From NCBI GenBank assembly GCA_038373885.1, contig JAWZYV010013132.1, forward strand, positions 248,001-312,000: a stretch of 64,000 bases of DNA, given 5' to 3'. Made by a program: the position numbers and the translations under genes. How positions within the stretch are numbered: position 1 is the first letter of the stretch; each line of letters opens with the position of its first letter. The stretch comes from Cheiracanthium punctorium. Its lineage: Eukaryota > Arthropoda > Arachnida > Araneae > Cheiracanthiidae. Under the pieces are notes generated by a model. The model was given only the letters and a program-made list of their open reading frames with translations, did not search any database and had not been told where the DNA came from. This document shows positions 35,200 through 43,913 of this stretch, in pieces.

Positions 35200-35740
35200 A
35201 CTTTGCCGCTAGACCAAGGAACACGCATTCATTGTAGAACTGGTTTAACAATGTGCCGATATTTCTGCCGCAGTTTTTCGTAAATATCGGCGAAAAAATA
35301 CTAAAGAGTCATACACAGGAAACAAAATCTGCCACACTGTCTTGGTACACAAAGTGAACTATTTGCGCTAGAAACTCGAAAAAATTCGCAGATTTTCATT
35401 CAATTTCTTCGTAACTTTTTTTTTCTTTTTTGCTGTCACAAAGCGACTGGAAAAGATTTCATTAAAACAATATGACATCTTCCGATTTTTGTAGAATTTG
35501 ATAAGGAAAGCTTATGCTTGTTTACTTCAGCGTTACTAAAATATATTTACTTAAACATTAGAAAAAGGACTTGCTTTTAACATCGCGTACGCAACTGTAT
35601 TAGACTGAGCTGGCGTTTTTTTACAAGTACGTTGTGTTTTAATTGCTTTTTTCACTGTGACTAACACAAACACAGTGTTACAAATGACACGCATGCTCAC
35701 TTCTAGTGATTGTCAAAGTGTTTTAACAAGTGCCATGGCT
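35200..35740 (-). repeat. Downstream flank of the inverted Gr locus
   Basis: Matches in inverted form the flanks downstream of the receptors at 46819 and 60584. Examples are 'ctggtttaac' with 'atttctg' (about 35238-35275 against 49340-49375 and 62233-62270) and 'tgactaacacaaac' (about 35658 against 48083 and 61840). No coding sequence. Confidence 0.6.
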
Positions 35741-35789
35741 AAAATAAATAAAAACTTTGTGAAAAAAAAACACACATAAAAGGTTACTT

Positions 35790-35850
35790 CAAGGCGTAAC
35801 GATCGTTTCGACCGAAAATTCATTCGGTCTTCGTCAGACAAACCCTTCCG
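35790..35850 (-). ncRNA. Hammerhead-like ribozyme motif (minus strand)
   Basis: On the minus strand, CTGACGA (35837-35831) and GAAA (35809-35806) enclose stem II GACCGAA/TTCGGTC. The palindrome ACGATCGT follows as a loopless stem III. The same strand as the receptor at 36070, about 230 bp beyond its stop codon. One extra A stands between CUGANGA and stem II, as in the other copies in this window. Confidence 0.65.
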
Positions 35851-35916
35851 TCATACAGAGCAGAGGGAACTGAAAAAGATAAGTAGATCTTTTTCAGTTC
35901 CCTCTGCTCTGTATGA

Positions 35917-35982
35917 CGGAAGGGTTTGTCTGACGAAGACCGAATGAATTTTCGGTCGAAACGATCGTTGCGCCTTGAAGTA
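35917..35982 (+). ncRNA. Hammerhead-like ribozyme motif (plus strand)
   Basis: Core CTGACGA at 35930-35936; stem II GACCGAA (35938-35944) and TTCGGTC (35951-35957); GAAA at 35958-35961. Stem III is the palindrome ACGATCGT (35961-35968), which suits dimer formation; predicted cleavage follows GTT, after 35969. Flanking AAGG (about 35920) can pair with CCTT (35973-35976) as outer stem I. Matches the minimal hammerhead form reported for Penelope-like elements. Activity is not shown, and GUU is a weaker cleavage triplet than GUC or GUA. Confidence 0.7.
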
Positions 35983-36069
35983 ACCTTTTATGTGTGTTTT
36001 CTTCACAAAGTTTTTATTTATTTTATCTTTTAACACCAGTTTTTTGAGTGGTTATTTTCAGTGCCATGA

Positions 36070-37263
36070 CTATTTACCGTCAGATGGAACAGCATTAGCA
36101 CTGAAAGTGGCAATAAGTATGCCATACGTAAGTAGATTTCCGATTACTGACAGAATCAGTCCTTTACTCAGGGCAATAGAATCAAGCAGCTTGAATCCTT
36201 CCATATCCTCCTTTAGCGGGACGATGATATGTGACAGATTTGGATGCCTCATAGAGAGCTTTTGAGCCGTGATTTTAATATCAGAGGCAGCATTTAAAAT
36301 GGACGAATTATACGAACACATGCAGACAAATTCTAAAAACGTAGAGGATATGAGATAAATGTATGTTATGGGTGAGTAACTAAAGTCTGCGTATACCGCA
36401 TTATACAATTGTTCAAAAACTGTGCTCAGTAATTGTGTAATTGTTATGAGAAGACACGGATGGATCTCACGGTTAATGTTTACGATACTGGTGCGAAGTT
36501 CCAAGTATACCTCGGAGACATGCTTCAGATCTTCAGAACTGATGTGCTGGAGTTTTACGTTTATTTCCCTGAGGGATTCTGTCATCACAAAGCAAACGGA
36601 ACAGAAGTAAGCAGTGATAGACGCATCGACAAGGCCGACATGATAAATTAGAACTGAAATAGGAAGAGAATAATAAGAGAATGGCGGAGGTATTTGCCAA
36701 TGATAATATACTTTATAAGTTCGCGTAAACATACATGAGTCATAAGTGCGATATCCTGCATAAGCATAAAAAGATACCTGTTGTACAAACAGTACAAGCA
36801 TCAGTTTCCACCTAAATTTCTTCATGGAATTTTCATCCGAACATACTTTAGCATACGTTTCAGATAGATGGCATGAGATATTCTTAAGATTTTTTCTTTT
36901 GCAGTAGAGTGCTATTCTATTCAAAAAGCATAGAGATTGAATTGAAATAATTGCTAGTTGAACCTTAAGAATTACTAAATTTGCCTTCACAGAAGCGAGA
37001 TCACATATAATATAAATAGAATTTCCTTCCGCGATCGCTGCTAAGATAAGGGACAGAATTGTCATTGTTATGTACTTTCTAGAAAAATCAATACCTCTTT
37101 CAAATCCAATTCCATGTGCCCACATGTACTTGTTTATGAAGGAAAATATGCTCATTGTGCAGTTTTTTACTTTCTTTACTTTTTTTTCCTGGAATGAAAT
37201 CGGGATGATTTTAGAATTTCGTGATGAAAATAATTTTTCAAAGCGTGGTCGAAGCATTTCCAT
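36070..37263 (-). CDS. Gustatory receptor family 7-TM chemoreceptor
   Basis: 397 codons in one exon. Seven hydrophobic segments by eye lie near residues 62-83, 103-121, 151-172, 199-226, 268-292, 298-320 and 366-388. TM7 has LLTYGILIATF with T379-Y380 (the TYxxxxxQF signature, Q replaced by T). Expected to be a ligand-gated channel of gustatory or contact-chemosensory neurons. A close paralogue of 46819 and 60584: N-terminal INKYMWAHGIGFE and the last 70 residues are nearly the same, while the TM1-TM2 and TM3-TM4 loops differ. The start could be the ATG at 37263 or the one at 37257, which gives the family-standard MLRPRF. A likely acceptor CAG lies at 37279-37277. A Penelope-like palindrome begins about 45 bp after the stop and brings an AATAAA. 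No frameshift seen. Confidence 0.92.
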   Translation of the reverse strand: MEMLRPRFEKLFSSRNSKIIPISFQEKKVKKVKNCTMSIFSFINKYMWAHGIGFERGIDFSRKYITMTILSLILAAIAEGNSIYIICDLASVKANLVILKVQLAIISIQSLCFLNRIALYCKRKNLKNISCHLSETYAKVCSDENSMKKFRWKLMLVLFVQQVSFYAYAGYRTYDSCMFTRTYKVYYHWQIPPPFSYYSLPISVLIYHVGLVDASITAYFCSVCFVMTESLREINVKLQHISSEDLKHVSEVYLELRTSIVNINREIHPCLLITITQLLSTVFEQLYNAVYADFSYSPITYIYLISSTFLEFVCMCSYNSSILNAASDIKITAQKLSMRHPNLSHIIVPLKEDMEGFKLLDSIALSKGLILSVIGNLLTYGILIATFSANAVPSDGK

Positions 37264-38855: not shown

Positions 38856-38996
38856 TACTTCTCAGTTCCCTGTGTTCCTTGTGACGAAGGGCTTGGACTG
38901 AGGAAGGCCAAAACAATTTTTGGCCGAAACGTACGTATCTTCTTACCTATAACATCTTATGTGTGTTTTTTACAAAGTTTTTTATTTACTTTATTA
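38856..38996 (+). mobile_element. Penelope-like terminal repeat fragment
   Basis: Shares with 35895-36020 the order 'cagttccct(g/c)tg(t/c)tc', 'tgacg(a/g)aggg', the hammerhead-like core, and the tail 'tatgtgtgttttNtNacaaagtt' followed by 'tttattta'. Single orientation, no inverted partner. Confidence 0.65.
38885..38945 (+). ncRNA. Hammerhead-like ribozyme motif
   Basis: Core CTGAGGA at 38898-38904; stem II GGCCAAAA (38906-38913), loop, TTTTGGCC (38918-38925); GAAA at 38926-38929. Stem III is the palindrome ACGTACGT (38929-38936), with cleavage triplet GTA predicted to break after 38937. Stem I can form from GGA before the core with TCT after the site, then AAGG with TCTT. Best-formed of the copies in this window. 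Confidence 0.7.
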
Positions 38997-40481: not shown

Positions 40482-42464
40482 TTAATAACTCGTTCAAACT
40501 CGACCTGTTCACATCATTTTACAGTCTACGTATTATATACTAATGTTCAGTCAATGCCTGGTTAATCTTTTTTTTTTGGCATAATGGTTAATACCCAGTG
40601 ATGCTACAGCGGCTTAGGCCTTTCGTATCACTTTTCGTATCAGAAAAAATCGACTTTTGTATCAGTTTTCAGGCTTTCGTATCAGGAAAAATCTAATTTT
40701 GTATCAGTTTTACAGACTTTCGTATCAGGAAAAAATCTAATTTCGTATCAATTTTACAGATTTTCGTTTCACAAAATTACTTTAGTATCAGTTTTGCAGA
40801 CTTTTGCATCAAAGATTTCTGCTTTTGCATCAGTTTCACAAATTTTTGTGCTTAAAAAGAAAACTCTATACTTATCAATTTTGCAAGCTTTTGTATCGCT
40901 TACATATTATGTATAATGCCCCCTCTTACCACCCCTCAAAAAAGGTAAAAAGAAAAATATTGTTATCAGTAAAGCTGATTATTATATATATATATATATA
41001 TTATTTTTTTAAGTGGACAATTTCAAATCGGTTATACTGGTGTTTAAATTTGTTTGATTATTGGGCTGTATTTTAAAGTATTGACATTAGCATTATACTA
41101 CCATATTTTTTTTAACAAACAATTACATGACAGGAGCTATTTACAAGTAATTTAACAAATAACTTAATAATATTATATTTTAAGAAAATTTTTTCAGGCT
41201 ACAGCTTTTCAAAAAGGTTTTTTTTTTTTGTGAAGGCAGCAATTTTCAAAGAAAGTAAAATCCTTTGTCCATAATACTGAAAAATCAAATTTCCGGAATA
41301 TTGGCGAACCCAGGAGGCGGAGGGGGGGGGGAGGTGCACTCCCAAAATCTGACACTCGGGAATCTTTAGTTTATGCTAGCATTATAGTTATTTATAAATT
41401 TATGTAACTAAAAATTGTAATTAAAATGATTATTGTATCATAAGTATAATCTAATTAGGATTAATAAACATTTTGTTTAATTTACCTATTATTGTGATGA
41501 TAACCGACCCCCATACCCGGGGGGGGGGGAGGAAAAAGAAAGAAACTGTTGCTTGAGCCTTTGTCTCGGAATCGCTAAGTCAGAACGATTCCCCTCTCCC
41601 TTGTCACGTGTCACGTGATGCTACGCATACTCCCGTGCGCCCGCGTGAGGGTGTGAGCTAGACAATCCGTTGGTCCATACATTCCCAAGCGCTTGCAAAT
41701 AAATAAAATTAAATGAGTTTTTTAACAAATAGAAACAAAATAAGTACTTTCTATGAACTCTACATTCGAAATTAGCAAATGGTGAAGTCCTTAAAAAAAT
41801 TCTATTCAATATCATAATCTAGTCTTCGAGTTAGAATGATTTTAACATATTAAATGTTAATACTGAATTTTAATAATAACTTTATAACATAAGTTTAAAG
41901 TCTAGGTTTTTTTGATGCGATAGTTAAATATGGTTTAAAATGTCATGCATCGAAAATCCGCCAACCATGCATCTAACCAACGCCACACTGAATGCATACA
42001 AGAATTTAAAATTTTGAAAAGCAAAAATATTTTTTAACTGTGCAATTTTTTGTTTCCTTCGAAGGCTCTGAACGCAAGTCATAACGAACACAGTGATGGC
42101 GTTGTAGGTTTGCTATCACTAGGTTAATTTAAGTTTATGGAATTGCCGGTTTTTTAAATAGCTGTTAAATTCTTTCCTTAGTTAACGGCGTAAGCGACAA
42201 AAAAAAAAAAAAAAAAAAACTACTTTCACTGAGCTTTCTGTATATTCATGTGTTGAACTTAAAGAAAAAAAAATGCATTAGTTTGCGGTGTTTTGTTCAT
42301 TGTTTGGATCATTCTTTTTCTTTCAGTTGATTAACTGTAAAAAGTCTTTTCGCGGTAGCAACTGGGTTTTTCTGCCAATCGAGGGCGCCGTGGCAAGAGC
42401 TGCAAATTCTTGACTTGCTTTAAAATGTAAAATAATATAAAACTTTGTAAAATAACACCTATTT

Positions 42465-42530
42465 TTACTGCCATACAGCTGTTTCGAGCAAAAACTTTTT
42501 GCCCTTCCTCAGTGACAATAGTTAGGATTA
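42465..42530 (-). ncRNA. Hammerhead-like ribozyme motif (intact core)
   Basis: On the minus strand, CTGAGGA (42512-42506), stem II GGGCAAAA/TTTTGCTC, GAAA (42485-42482), stem III palindrome ACAGCTGT (42482-42475) and cleavage triplet GTA. The A-C-T before the core can pair with T-G-G after the cleavage site. Confidence 0.65.
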
Positions 42531-42830
42531 TCACTGAGGAAAGGGCAAAAAGTTTTGTTGTTGTTGTAGGATTAAGGCCAATTATCTACACGAGGGATCT
42601 AGGACTGGGTGGGGTGCCCTCCGTTGTAGCCTTTCTAAGGGGTCCTAACCTATTTTGAGGCTGTTTTGGAGAAAACCACGGAAAACTCCGAACGGTTTGG
42701 TCGGCAGACGCGACCTGGCACGAACCAGGTGCCTGGTTTCAAACCAGGCGCCTTCCATCTCCCAGTTCAGTGCTCAATGCACTCTGCCACTGGTGGGGCG
42801 CAAAATTTTTTGCTCGAATAGCTGTATGGC
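42528..42830 (+). ncRNA. Hammerhead-like ribozyme motif, broken
   Basis: CTGAGGA at 42534-42540 and the first half of stem II are separated from 'ttttttgctc' and the remaining core by the SINE. The GAAA core reads GAAT and a base is missing before AGCTGT. Non-functional as it stands. Confidence 0.6.
42558..42799 (-). mobile_element. tRNA-derived SINE
   Basis: Minus strand, 5' end at 42799. An A-box-like AGTGGCAGAGTGCA and a B-box-like GGTTTGAAACC (complement at 42735-42745) form a Pol III promoter. The 3' tail is (CAA)n, seen as 'ttgttgttgttg' at 42557-42566. It is flanked by GCAAAAAGTTTTG (42545-42557) and GCAAAATTTTTTG (42800-42812), an imperfect 13-bp target duplication. SINEs are copied by LINE machinery. 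Shares the tail type with the repeat at 54765. Confidence 0.75.
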
Positions 42831-43913
42831 GTCTAAGTAAACTTTATGGTGTTATTTTATAATTAAAAAAAATATTTTATGTTTTAAACACCCGTTGCTT
42901 TGAGTGATTTTATTGGTTTAAAATAGTTCATTTAATGATTTTACTTTTTTTTCTTATTAGAGCTTTCATTTACTTTCCGTTTTGCGTATAGTGGATTATT
43001 TTTTGAGGTTATTCAAAATACAAACAGAAAAAAAATTATTTCTTTCTTGGTTTTAAAAAGGAGAAATTTATTTTGAAAACCATTCATTTAAAGCGTTCTT
43101 TTGAACCTTGAAAAAAACTGCTAATTTAACTATTACATATATTATCTAGCCGCCTCCCCCCTCCCCCAATTTCTTTTGCGCACTACCCTTATTGTCGCAC
43201 AAAAAATGCTTAATAAGAAAAAAAAAAAGGTTTAAAAGCATATATAGCATTTAGAGCTATTCAGCAATACAGGAGTGTTTAGATACATTAGTGATTTTAT
43301 TTTTGTTGTTTGATTTATATCAGCCCTAAACTATGTTTACTTTAACCTATGGGATAAGTTTTCTCTGTTTATTCTTTTGATGGAACATCTGCCCCATTCT
43401 GAATGCATATCATTTACCAAACAGGGTAAAGAGGCAGGATGTTTTGACGGCCTTTGATAAGTTATTTACAAGAATCTATTAAATAAAGTGCTTTGTAGAG
43501 GAAAAATTTTCTAAAACCATTGTCTTTTTTTTTTGTTAATTGTTTTACTATTATTAATTCTATCCTTGATTTTAAAGTGATGAAATATATTGTTTGGATT
43601 TGTTGATTTTGGGGGAGATCAGTTTGGAACTGTACGCACTTTCTGATATGAAAAATCGAACAGTGTTCTGGTGAAAACGGGAAAGTGATACATTAGTATG
43701 TATTTTTTGGTTTATTTACTTTTTTGGACCTTGGGACAGCACGGATTTGGAGCAGAATTTGTTTAAAATTATACTTTTTGTATCAGGAAATACCAAGAAA
43801 TTCTTTTGGCGCAGAAACCTTCAAAAATAAGCTTTTTGTATCAGGATGTATCAAGAGATTCCATTTGGCGCAGTTTGGCGCAATTGGCGCAGCCGTAGCA
43901 TCCCTGTAATACC

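Follow-up and report, generated by a model that had tools for sequence, protein, structure and literature searches.

The window, i.e., the whole stretch of 64,000 nucleotides of Cheiracanthium punctorium DNA analysed here, harbours a palindromic insertion which starts about 45 bp beyond the stop codon of an open reading frame for a Gr-like chemoreceptor. This frame of 397 amino acids has no Pfam hit of its own; its 8 homologues share 26-30% identity with it and include 2 that carry PF08395 (7tm_7), and its C-terminal TYGILIATF resembles the insect Gr signature; the label "Gr-like" seems a fair one. An earlier note on this DNA had described a near-perfect palindrome past the stop codon, flanked by repeats held to be a target duplication, and both features are real. 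The inverted repeat consists of two arms of 138 nt each (35743-35880 and 35887-36024), 91% complementary in an ungapped comparison and separated by a gap of 6 nt, a structure which is repeated across a family of dispersed copies. The flanking direct repeat is a duplication of 13 bp, with 12/13 positions identical between 35729-35741 and 36060-36072. The duplication overlaps the stop codon, and TAG occurs in both copies, so that the stop codon is independent of the insertion. This part of the anatomy stands as first described, but a one-sided tail of 34 nt at 36026-36059, which separates the palindrome from the right copy of the duplication, had been overlooked. In the family sequence, the tail forms a stem-loop of the AACAC...GTGTT type, as judged by eye. 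The features are the following, the arms being numbered according to the family positions q1 to q138:

35729-35741, no strand: left copy of the target-site duplication, AGTGCCATGGCTA, from a direct-repeat comparison
35742-36059, plus strand: entire insertion, made up of the left arm, a join of 8 nt, the right arm and the tail; it abuts the duplication directly and its limits recur in the remaining scored copies; the TA at 35740-35741 is attributable to either the insertion or the target
35740-35879, minus strand: left arm, a cDNA beginning at site A, devoid of a tail and running from q138 to q1, 96% identical to the family arm
35788-35837, minus strand: minimal hammerhead motif of the left arm, with a predicted cut between 35798 and 35797
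35880-35887, no strand: join between the arms, TAAGTAGA, unique among the 36 independent first-set copies
35888-36025, plus strand: right arm, from q1 to q138 and running on into the tail, 96% identical to the family arm
35894-35899, plus strand: initiator-like TCAGTT, in which the A (35896, q9) is the position where cDNAs of the tail set end most often
35930-35979, plus strand: minimal hammerhead motif of the right arm, with CTGACGA at 35930, an extra A, stem II, GAAA at 35958 and a predicted cut between 35969 and 35970
36013-36022, minus strand: two overlapping AATAAA signals (36022 and 36018) in the sense of the Gr-like gene, on the outer margin of the arm that its transcript meets first
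36026-36059, plus strand: one-sided, non-palindromic tail of 34 nt, ending at start site B
36060-36072, no strand: right copy of the target-site duplication, AGTGCCATGACTA, overlapping the stop codon
36070-37263, minus strand: Gr-like open reading frame, stop codon at 36070-36072

A dispersed family with a minimal hammerhead

The element belongs to a large family. With the whole element as query, 40 of 1,996 first-look candidates from the 2.53-Gb genome were scored and all turned out to be copies of the element, which cannot be due to chance. The 39 copies of this first set other than that of the window were retrieved and all of them, except for L026 and L029 which were left out of the consensus alignment, align across nearly the entire unit. 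The majority sequence of 38 copies is a palindrome of 277 nt with one mismatch, followed by the tail. Searched alone at up to 2 mismatches, the tail occurs at 1,420 genome sites, versus 0 for a reversed-pattern control. A second set, the tail set, was assembled from the first 100 exact tail sites of the listing, regardless of palindromes; 97 of these fall in 96 newly retrieved stretches, the remaining three having been retrieved before, and 93 distinct loci were left after 3 same-flank loci had been dropped. Duplications at a score of at least 8 occur in 64/93 of these loci, 59 of which have both arms mapped within a single duplication of 9-15 bp, and are lacking from 29/93, 21 of which show no clear partner arm. 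All the copies compared belong to one family in one genome.

Two characters of Penelope-like elements (PLEs) are found in this material, inverted pLTR-like arms with a tail of 30-40 bp at one end, and short target-site duplications of variable length (9-15 bp), which occur at a score of at least 8 in 34/40 copies of the first set versus 0.6% of 2,000 mismatched flank pairs. The family is best explained as a short non-autonomous PLE. Direct tandem monomers, as expected from a retrozyme, were not found, the two-armed insertions being inverted. In some longer members (L144-L147), q1 is preceded by a TC-rich region a few hundred nt long, and the inverted arms of L144 measure about 410 nt; in the 6 kb upstream of these four copies, no long open reading frame for a PLE reverse transcriptase or GIY-YIG domain was recognised.

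Each arm of the window insertion contains CTGACGA, an extra A, a stem II of 7 bp, GAAA and a self-complementary CGATCG. The Penelope-type minimal hammerhead expected in each arm by the earlier note was thus recovered, its layout (CUGANGA - stem II - GAAA - self-complementary stem III - UH) being matched apart from the extra A. When the family arm was dinucleotide-shuffled 100,000 times, the motif arose by chance in 11 of the shuffled sequences. A search with hammerhead models had also been proposed, and on this point the result was negative as far as Rfam is concerned: there were 0 gathering hits in the window, and none of 21 matches at E<=10 in 35600-36200 was a hammerhead, perhaps because stem III is almost absent. 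The miRNA matches obtained in the same search were rejected, reflecting only the long hairpin. Folded as a dimer with its core held open, the motif reaches -38.4 kcal/mol versus -41.4 kcal/mol in the unconstrained fold, i.e., a cost of 3 kcal/mol, and the hammerhead probably acts as a dimer. The extra A following CUGANGA also occurs in two diverged relatives located within the window and looks therefore like a family trait rather than damage; an extra A in a hammerhead core has a viroid precedent in CChMVd. One of these relatives is a single arm of 74% identity (38859-38993, plus strand), which starts with TCAGTT, ends at site A and possesses a CTGAGGA core with the extra A. The other consists of inverted arms (42428-42512, minus strand, and 42785-42888, plus strand), 67% identical to the family arm and 72% to each other, which lie about 270 nt apart on both sides of a stretch that looks tRNA-like, possibly a SINE, by eye.

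Probable start sites and ends of the cDNAs

The outer ends of the insertions are of two kinds, site A, devoid of the tail, and site B, with the tail, 34 nt apart from each other. A partner arm beginning at A accompanies the tailed end in 68 of the 93 tail loci, and no locus showed a second tail. These 68 partners comprise 49 flush scored cases, 9 other flush cases (L049, L054, L071, L084, L121, L122, L124, L131, L136) and 10 further ones, of which 5 are without a scored duplication and 5 were assigned by reading the flanks (L051, L095, L097, L109, L137). As for the remaining loci, the partner in L123 starts at neither A nor B, L101 is ambiguous, and 23 have no partner or a partial one. An apparent second tail in L051, L095 and L137 was ruled out upon reading of the flanks, and in L089 and L097 the tailed end extends 8 nt or more further downstream. 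The same distribution was found in 20 loci picked for a break at q83, with 16 associations of one A with one B, 0 AA, 0 BB, 2 single B and 2 complex cases, L159, made of several parts, being scored by its outermost ends and L148 and L157 looking like one insertion.

Approached from the other side, the A-end anchor has 4,666 occurrences in the genome, 901 of which continue into TCT. The first 100 anchor sites listed contain 15 opposed pairs by eye, 10 of them without a side in the TCT listing. The idea of frequent AA pairs was nevertheless rejected, since 10/10 of these non-TCT pairs, once fetched, bear a diverged tail on exactly one side; the number of independent cases among the ten is about 5, as a single insertion lying in another repeat accounts for several of them. 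Ten more A-end sites, none with an exact anchor facing it, were also fetched: the partner is of the other type in L183, L184 and L185 and probably in L179, and is absent from the fetched stretch in 6. Two-armed insertions seem, from these counts, to use A once and B once. As a separate observation, L169, L173, L176, L177 and L185, together with L171 and L175 in the opposite orientation, apparently derive from one PLE insertion copied within another dispersed repeat, and a foreign sequence separates the arms of L169.

At their inner side, the cDNAs end at preferred positions. In the tail set, 152 ends were mapped, 141 of them within q1-138, and 15 fall exactly at q9 against a background of 0.92 per position. 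This position is the A of TCAGTT, which resembles the initiator consensus, and q9 looks like a transcription start. A second accumulation occurs at q82-85 (11 ends versus 3.7 expected), where frequent decay of the CpG at q84-85 makes gapped extension miss part of the q83 ends. Genome-wide, equal-length patterns which require both bases before the position to differ from the family sequence retrieve 56 arms broken at q83, as compared to 8 for q88 and 5 for q90, although the q83 pattern has two degenerate positions for the decayed CpG which the control patterns do not have, and the 56 sites may count some insertions more than once (C9578 contains four sites, three of which are near one another, and L148 and L157 look like a single insertion). 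Twenty of the 56 sites were retrieved, i.e., the first 24 listed minus L089, L102 and L106, already seen, and C7026; all 20 proved to be genuine ends, preceded either by unrelated DNA or by the partner arm.

The q83 position is the first base past the predicted GUU cut. In L122 and L159, which are among the few loci with direct pieces, sequence from downstream of the tail is fused directly to q83, as if the polymerase had jumped from the cut RNA end to another RNA. Altogether, these ends point indirectly to a minimal hammerhead that cuts in vivo and to a cut RNA that serves as a template. A pause of the reverse transcriptase or a cut by the host, instead of self-cleavage, is an unlikely source of the q83 excess: ends also accumulate at q91-95 and at q41-43, perhaps through structural stops, which lends it some weight, but q83 lies exactly after the predicted cut, controls placed 5 and 7 nt off are 7 to 11 times lower, and a polymerase halted by structure should stop at the foot of stem I, not beyond it.

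Joins, arms and alternative origins

The junctions between the two arms are mostly private to each insertion. The 36 independent copies of the first set, defined by their different flanks, exhibit 30 distinct joins with fillers of 0 to 20 nt, and 7/36 have in common the simplest join, in which the arms meet at q1 without filler; 58 distinct joins occur among the 59 two-armed loci of the tail set. Copies with the same flanks (L020/L022/L045 and L023/L039) carry the same join. In the tail set, the arms are shortened to differing extents and are often unequal. By gapped extension (n=59), the two ends differ by >20 nt in 22 loci and by >40 nt in 17, and lie within 10 nt in 28 and within 5 nt in 18, the latter value being compared to a permutation mean of 6.7 and a maximum of 17 in 5,000 permutations. 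BLAST, which found both arms in 57 loci, gives 19, 11, 33 and 22 for the same classes, with a permutation mean of 7.0 and a maximum of 18 for ends within 5 nt. End mapping is imperfect, the two methods disagreeing by >12 nt at 10/57 loci, and a difference of >20 nt is obtained with both of them in 16 copies. In seven loci (L073, L091, L100, L108, L121, L124, L136), the arms defined by BLAST overlap inside the stems II/III of the ribozyme, as if cDNA ends had been joined through these internal palindromes.

Arm similarity is higher within a copy than between copies (96.6% versus 95.3%; 0/2,001 permutations, 36 independent copies, four same-flank copies being left out). A given arm has its own partner as best match in only 19/72 cases, which is expected if most differences arose after insertion. 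Among the 36 independent copies, A at q26 is in both arms in 10/10 copies which carry it, and C at q47, the free N of CUGANGA, in 13/14. Arm agreement in the tail set amounts to 19/20 at q26 and 29/29 at q47 with T counted as a decayed C, one more copy being gapped. Both arms of a copy would derive from the same source. Judging from the joins and the unequal arms, the palindrome is apparently made anew at each insertion.

Such palindromes could also arise if a cDNA, or a cDNA made on antisense RNA, folded back and primed its own inverted copy, as proposed for the palindromic junctions of bdelloid Penelope elements (in the part of PMC3846280 consulted). The excess of ends within 5 nt (18/59 or 22/57 versus about 7 expected) would agree with self-priming, which is nevertheless quite improbable in view of the 16 copies with ends >20 nt apart by both methods, and of a second arm that begins at A, flush with the duplication and not through the tail, the tail being present once per copy. 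There is very little probability that a foldback or MITE-like palindrome moves as a whole, its arms being kept alike by gene conversion: the likeness of the arms within a copy and the 7/36 simplest joins are also expected from unit-wise copying, but the distinct joins (30/36 and 58/59), the unequal truncation and the single-sided tail speak against it, and instead of the fixed-length duplication and symmetric ends of such elements, duplications of varying length are observed.

With respect to the neighbouring gene, the earlier note had surmised that the insert supplies AATAAA and could shorten, cleave or silence the receptor mRNA. The first point is correct, two signals being present on the Gr strand at 36022 and 36018; the second found no support. 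A minus-strand transcript of the Gr-like gene meets AATAAA first, and most of the hairpin and the sense ribozyme (35837-35797) only afterwards, and in a longer transcript the ribozyme sits behind 138 nt of its own complement, by which it is masked. Despite the distance of about 45 bp, the ribozyme in sense on the Gr strand and the 138-bp hairpin, a regulation of the receptor by self-cleavage or double-stranded RNA is thus highly improbable, all the more as the insert is a single copy of a large family and the stop codon occurs in both copies of the duplication. An assembly artefact has a negligible probability, since, even if long palindromes assemble poorly, the same structure is found at dozens of loci, each with its own duplication and join. 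L040 and L042, which could be cited in its favour, have identical flanks and a flipped palindrome centre, corresponding either to an inversion between the arms or to a choice made during assembly.

Proposed insertion from two start sites and the known elements

The most probable origin of these copies is the insertion of a non-autonomous PLE by reverse transcription primed from both sides of a break, often on a ribozyme-cut RNA. A small RNA would begin at the TCAGTT initiator (q9) or further upstream, and pass through the minimal, probably dimer-acting hammerhead and then through the AC-rich stem-loop. A PLE protein acting in trans would make a staggered break, both ends of which would prime reverse transcription on the element RNA. 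One end would prime at the internal site B, giving the 34-nt tail, and the other at site A, 34 nt closer to the 5' end of the RNA. Each cDNA would extend to that 5' end, either q9 or the ribozyme cut at q83, or halt earlier, and the two cDNA ends would be joined, sometimes with filler, into an inverted pair with one tail and one target duplication. The anatomy of the arms, the single tail of two-armed copies, the often unequal truncation, the mostly private joins, the duplications and the surplus of ends at q9 and q83 can be read directly from the sequences, whereas the protein, the order of the steps and the part of the ribozyme itself in the cleavage are inferred.

A more specific proposal is that one RNA molecule, often cut by the hammerhead, is copied twice per insertion by an asymmetric PLE complex obliged to use A on one side and B on the other. 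This suggestion, offered tentatively and somewhat less probable than its opposite, is derived from the single tail per copy, the near-equal ends in 18/59 or 22/57 copies versus about 7, and the agreement of the arms at q47 and q26, which could be explained as well by one subfamily active at a time. The ribozyme would then make a clean 5' end, and there the cDNA would terminate, be joined or switch to another RNA.

Various known elements share some of these properties. In the twin priming of L1, both target strands prime on the element RNA and an inversion results. The family resembles L1 in the proposed priming by both strands and in the inversion, and differs from it in that the two L1 parts come from different regions of the RNA, whereas the two parts found here cover the same region from two starts. 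Minimal type I PLE hammerheads acting as dimers were reportedly characterized by Cervera & de la Pena in 2014 and Lunse in 2017. In the part of PMC7761336 available, such dimeric hammerheads are described, and the family shares with them the near-absent stem III with its self-complementary loop, while the A that follows CUGANGA, in the family and in both relatives within the window, sets it apart. Metazoan retrozymes, from a partial view of PMC7229834, are also short, non-autonomous and hammerhead-bearing, and a movement driven by PLEs has been suggested for them; however, they consist of direct tandem repeats with canonical type I hammerheads, whereas the arms of the family are inverted and its hammerhead is minimal.

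The closest resemblance is to the Penelope/Poseidon PLEs, e.g., PAc from Anolis (PMC11167929) and Penelope from Adineta (PMC3846280), both sources being accessible in part. Inverted pLTR-like arms with a tail of 30-40 bp at one end, target duplications (8-10 bp in Adineta), a minimal hammerhead, an AC-rich stem-loop and a start of reverse transcription some 85-92 nt after the cut are common to these elements and the family. In contrast, the family has no open reading frame found to date, a unit of only a few hundred bases and an extra A in the core. In the same sections of these two papers, the tail is described as optional in PLEs, whereas it occurs once in the two-armed insertions examined here. 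The predicted cut lies 90 nt from the end of the tail (35970-36059), as compared to 85-92 nt between the cut (+26) and the start (+111-118) in Anolis, the single species available for comparison, according to the accessible part of PMC11167929. The sections of this 2024 in vitro study at hand indicate that both DNA strands are cut and extended and that the tail corresponds to the stretch between two adjacent reverse-transcription starts, no difference in start site between the strands having been seen in vitro; the Anolis ribozyme required the help of the protein and no RNA-seq ends were found at the cut. In the accessible portions of the literature, mostly outside subscription journals, there is no report of one A and one B start per insertion, nor of insertion ends accumulating where the ribozyme cuts.

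Owing to the short size and the large number of copies of the family, two cDNA starts, two stops and one join can be read from each insertion, and the family offers a genome-scale test of dual-primed insertion. In this respect, the q83 data add indirect genomic evidence that the ribozyme cuts inside the cell.
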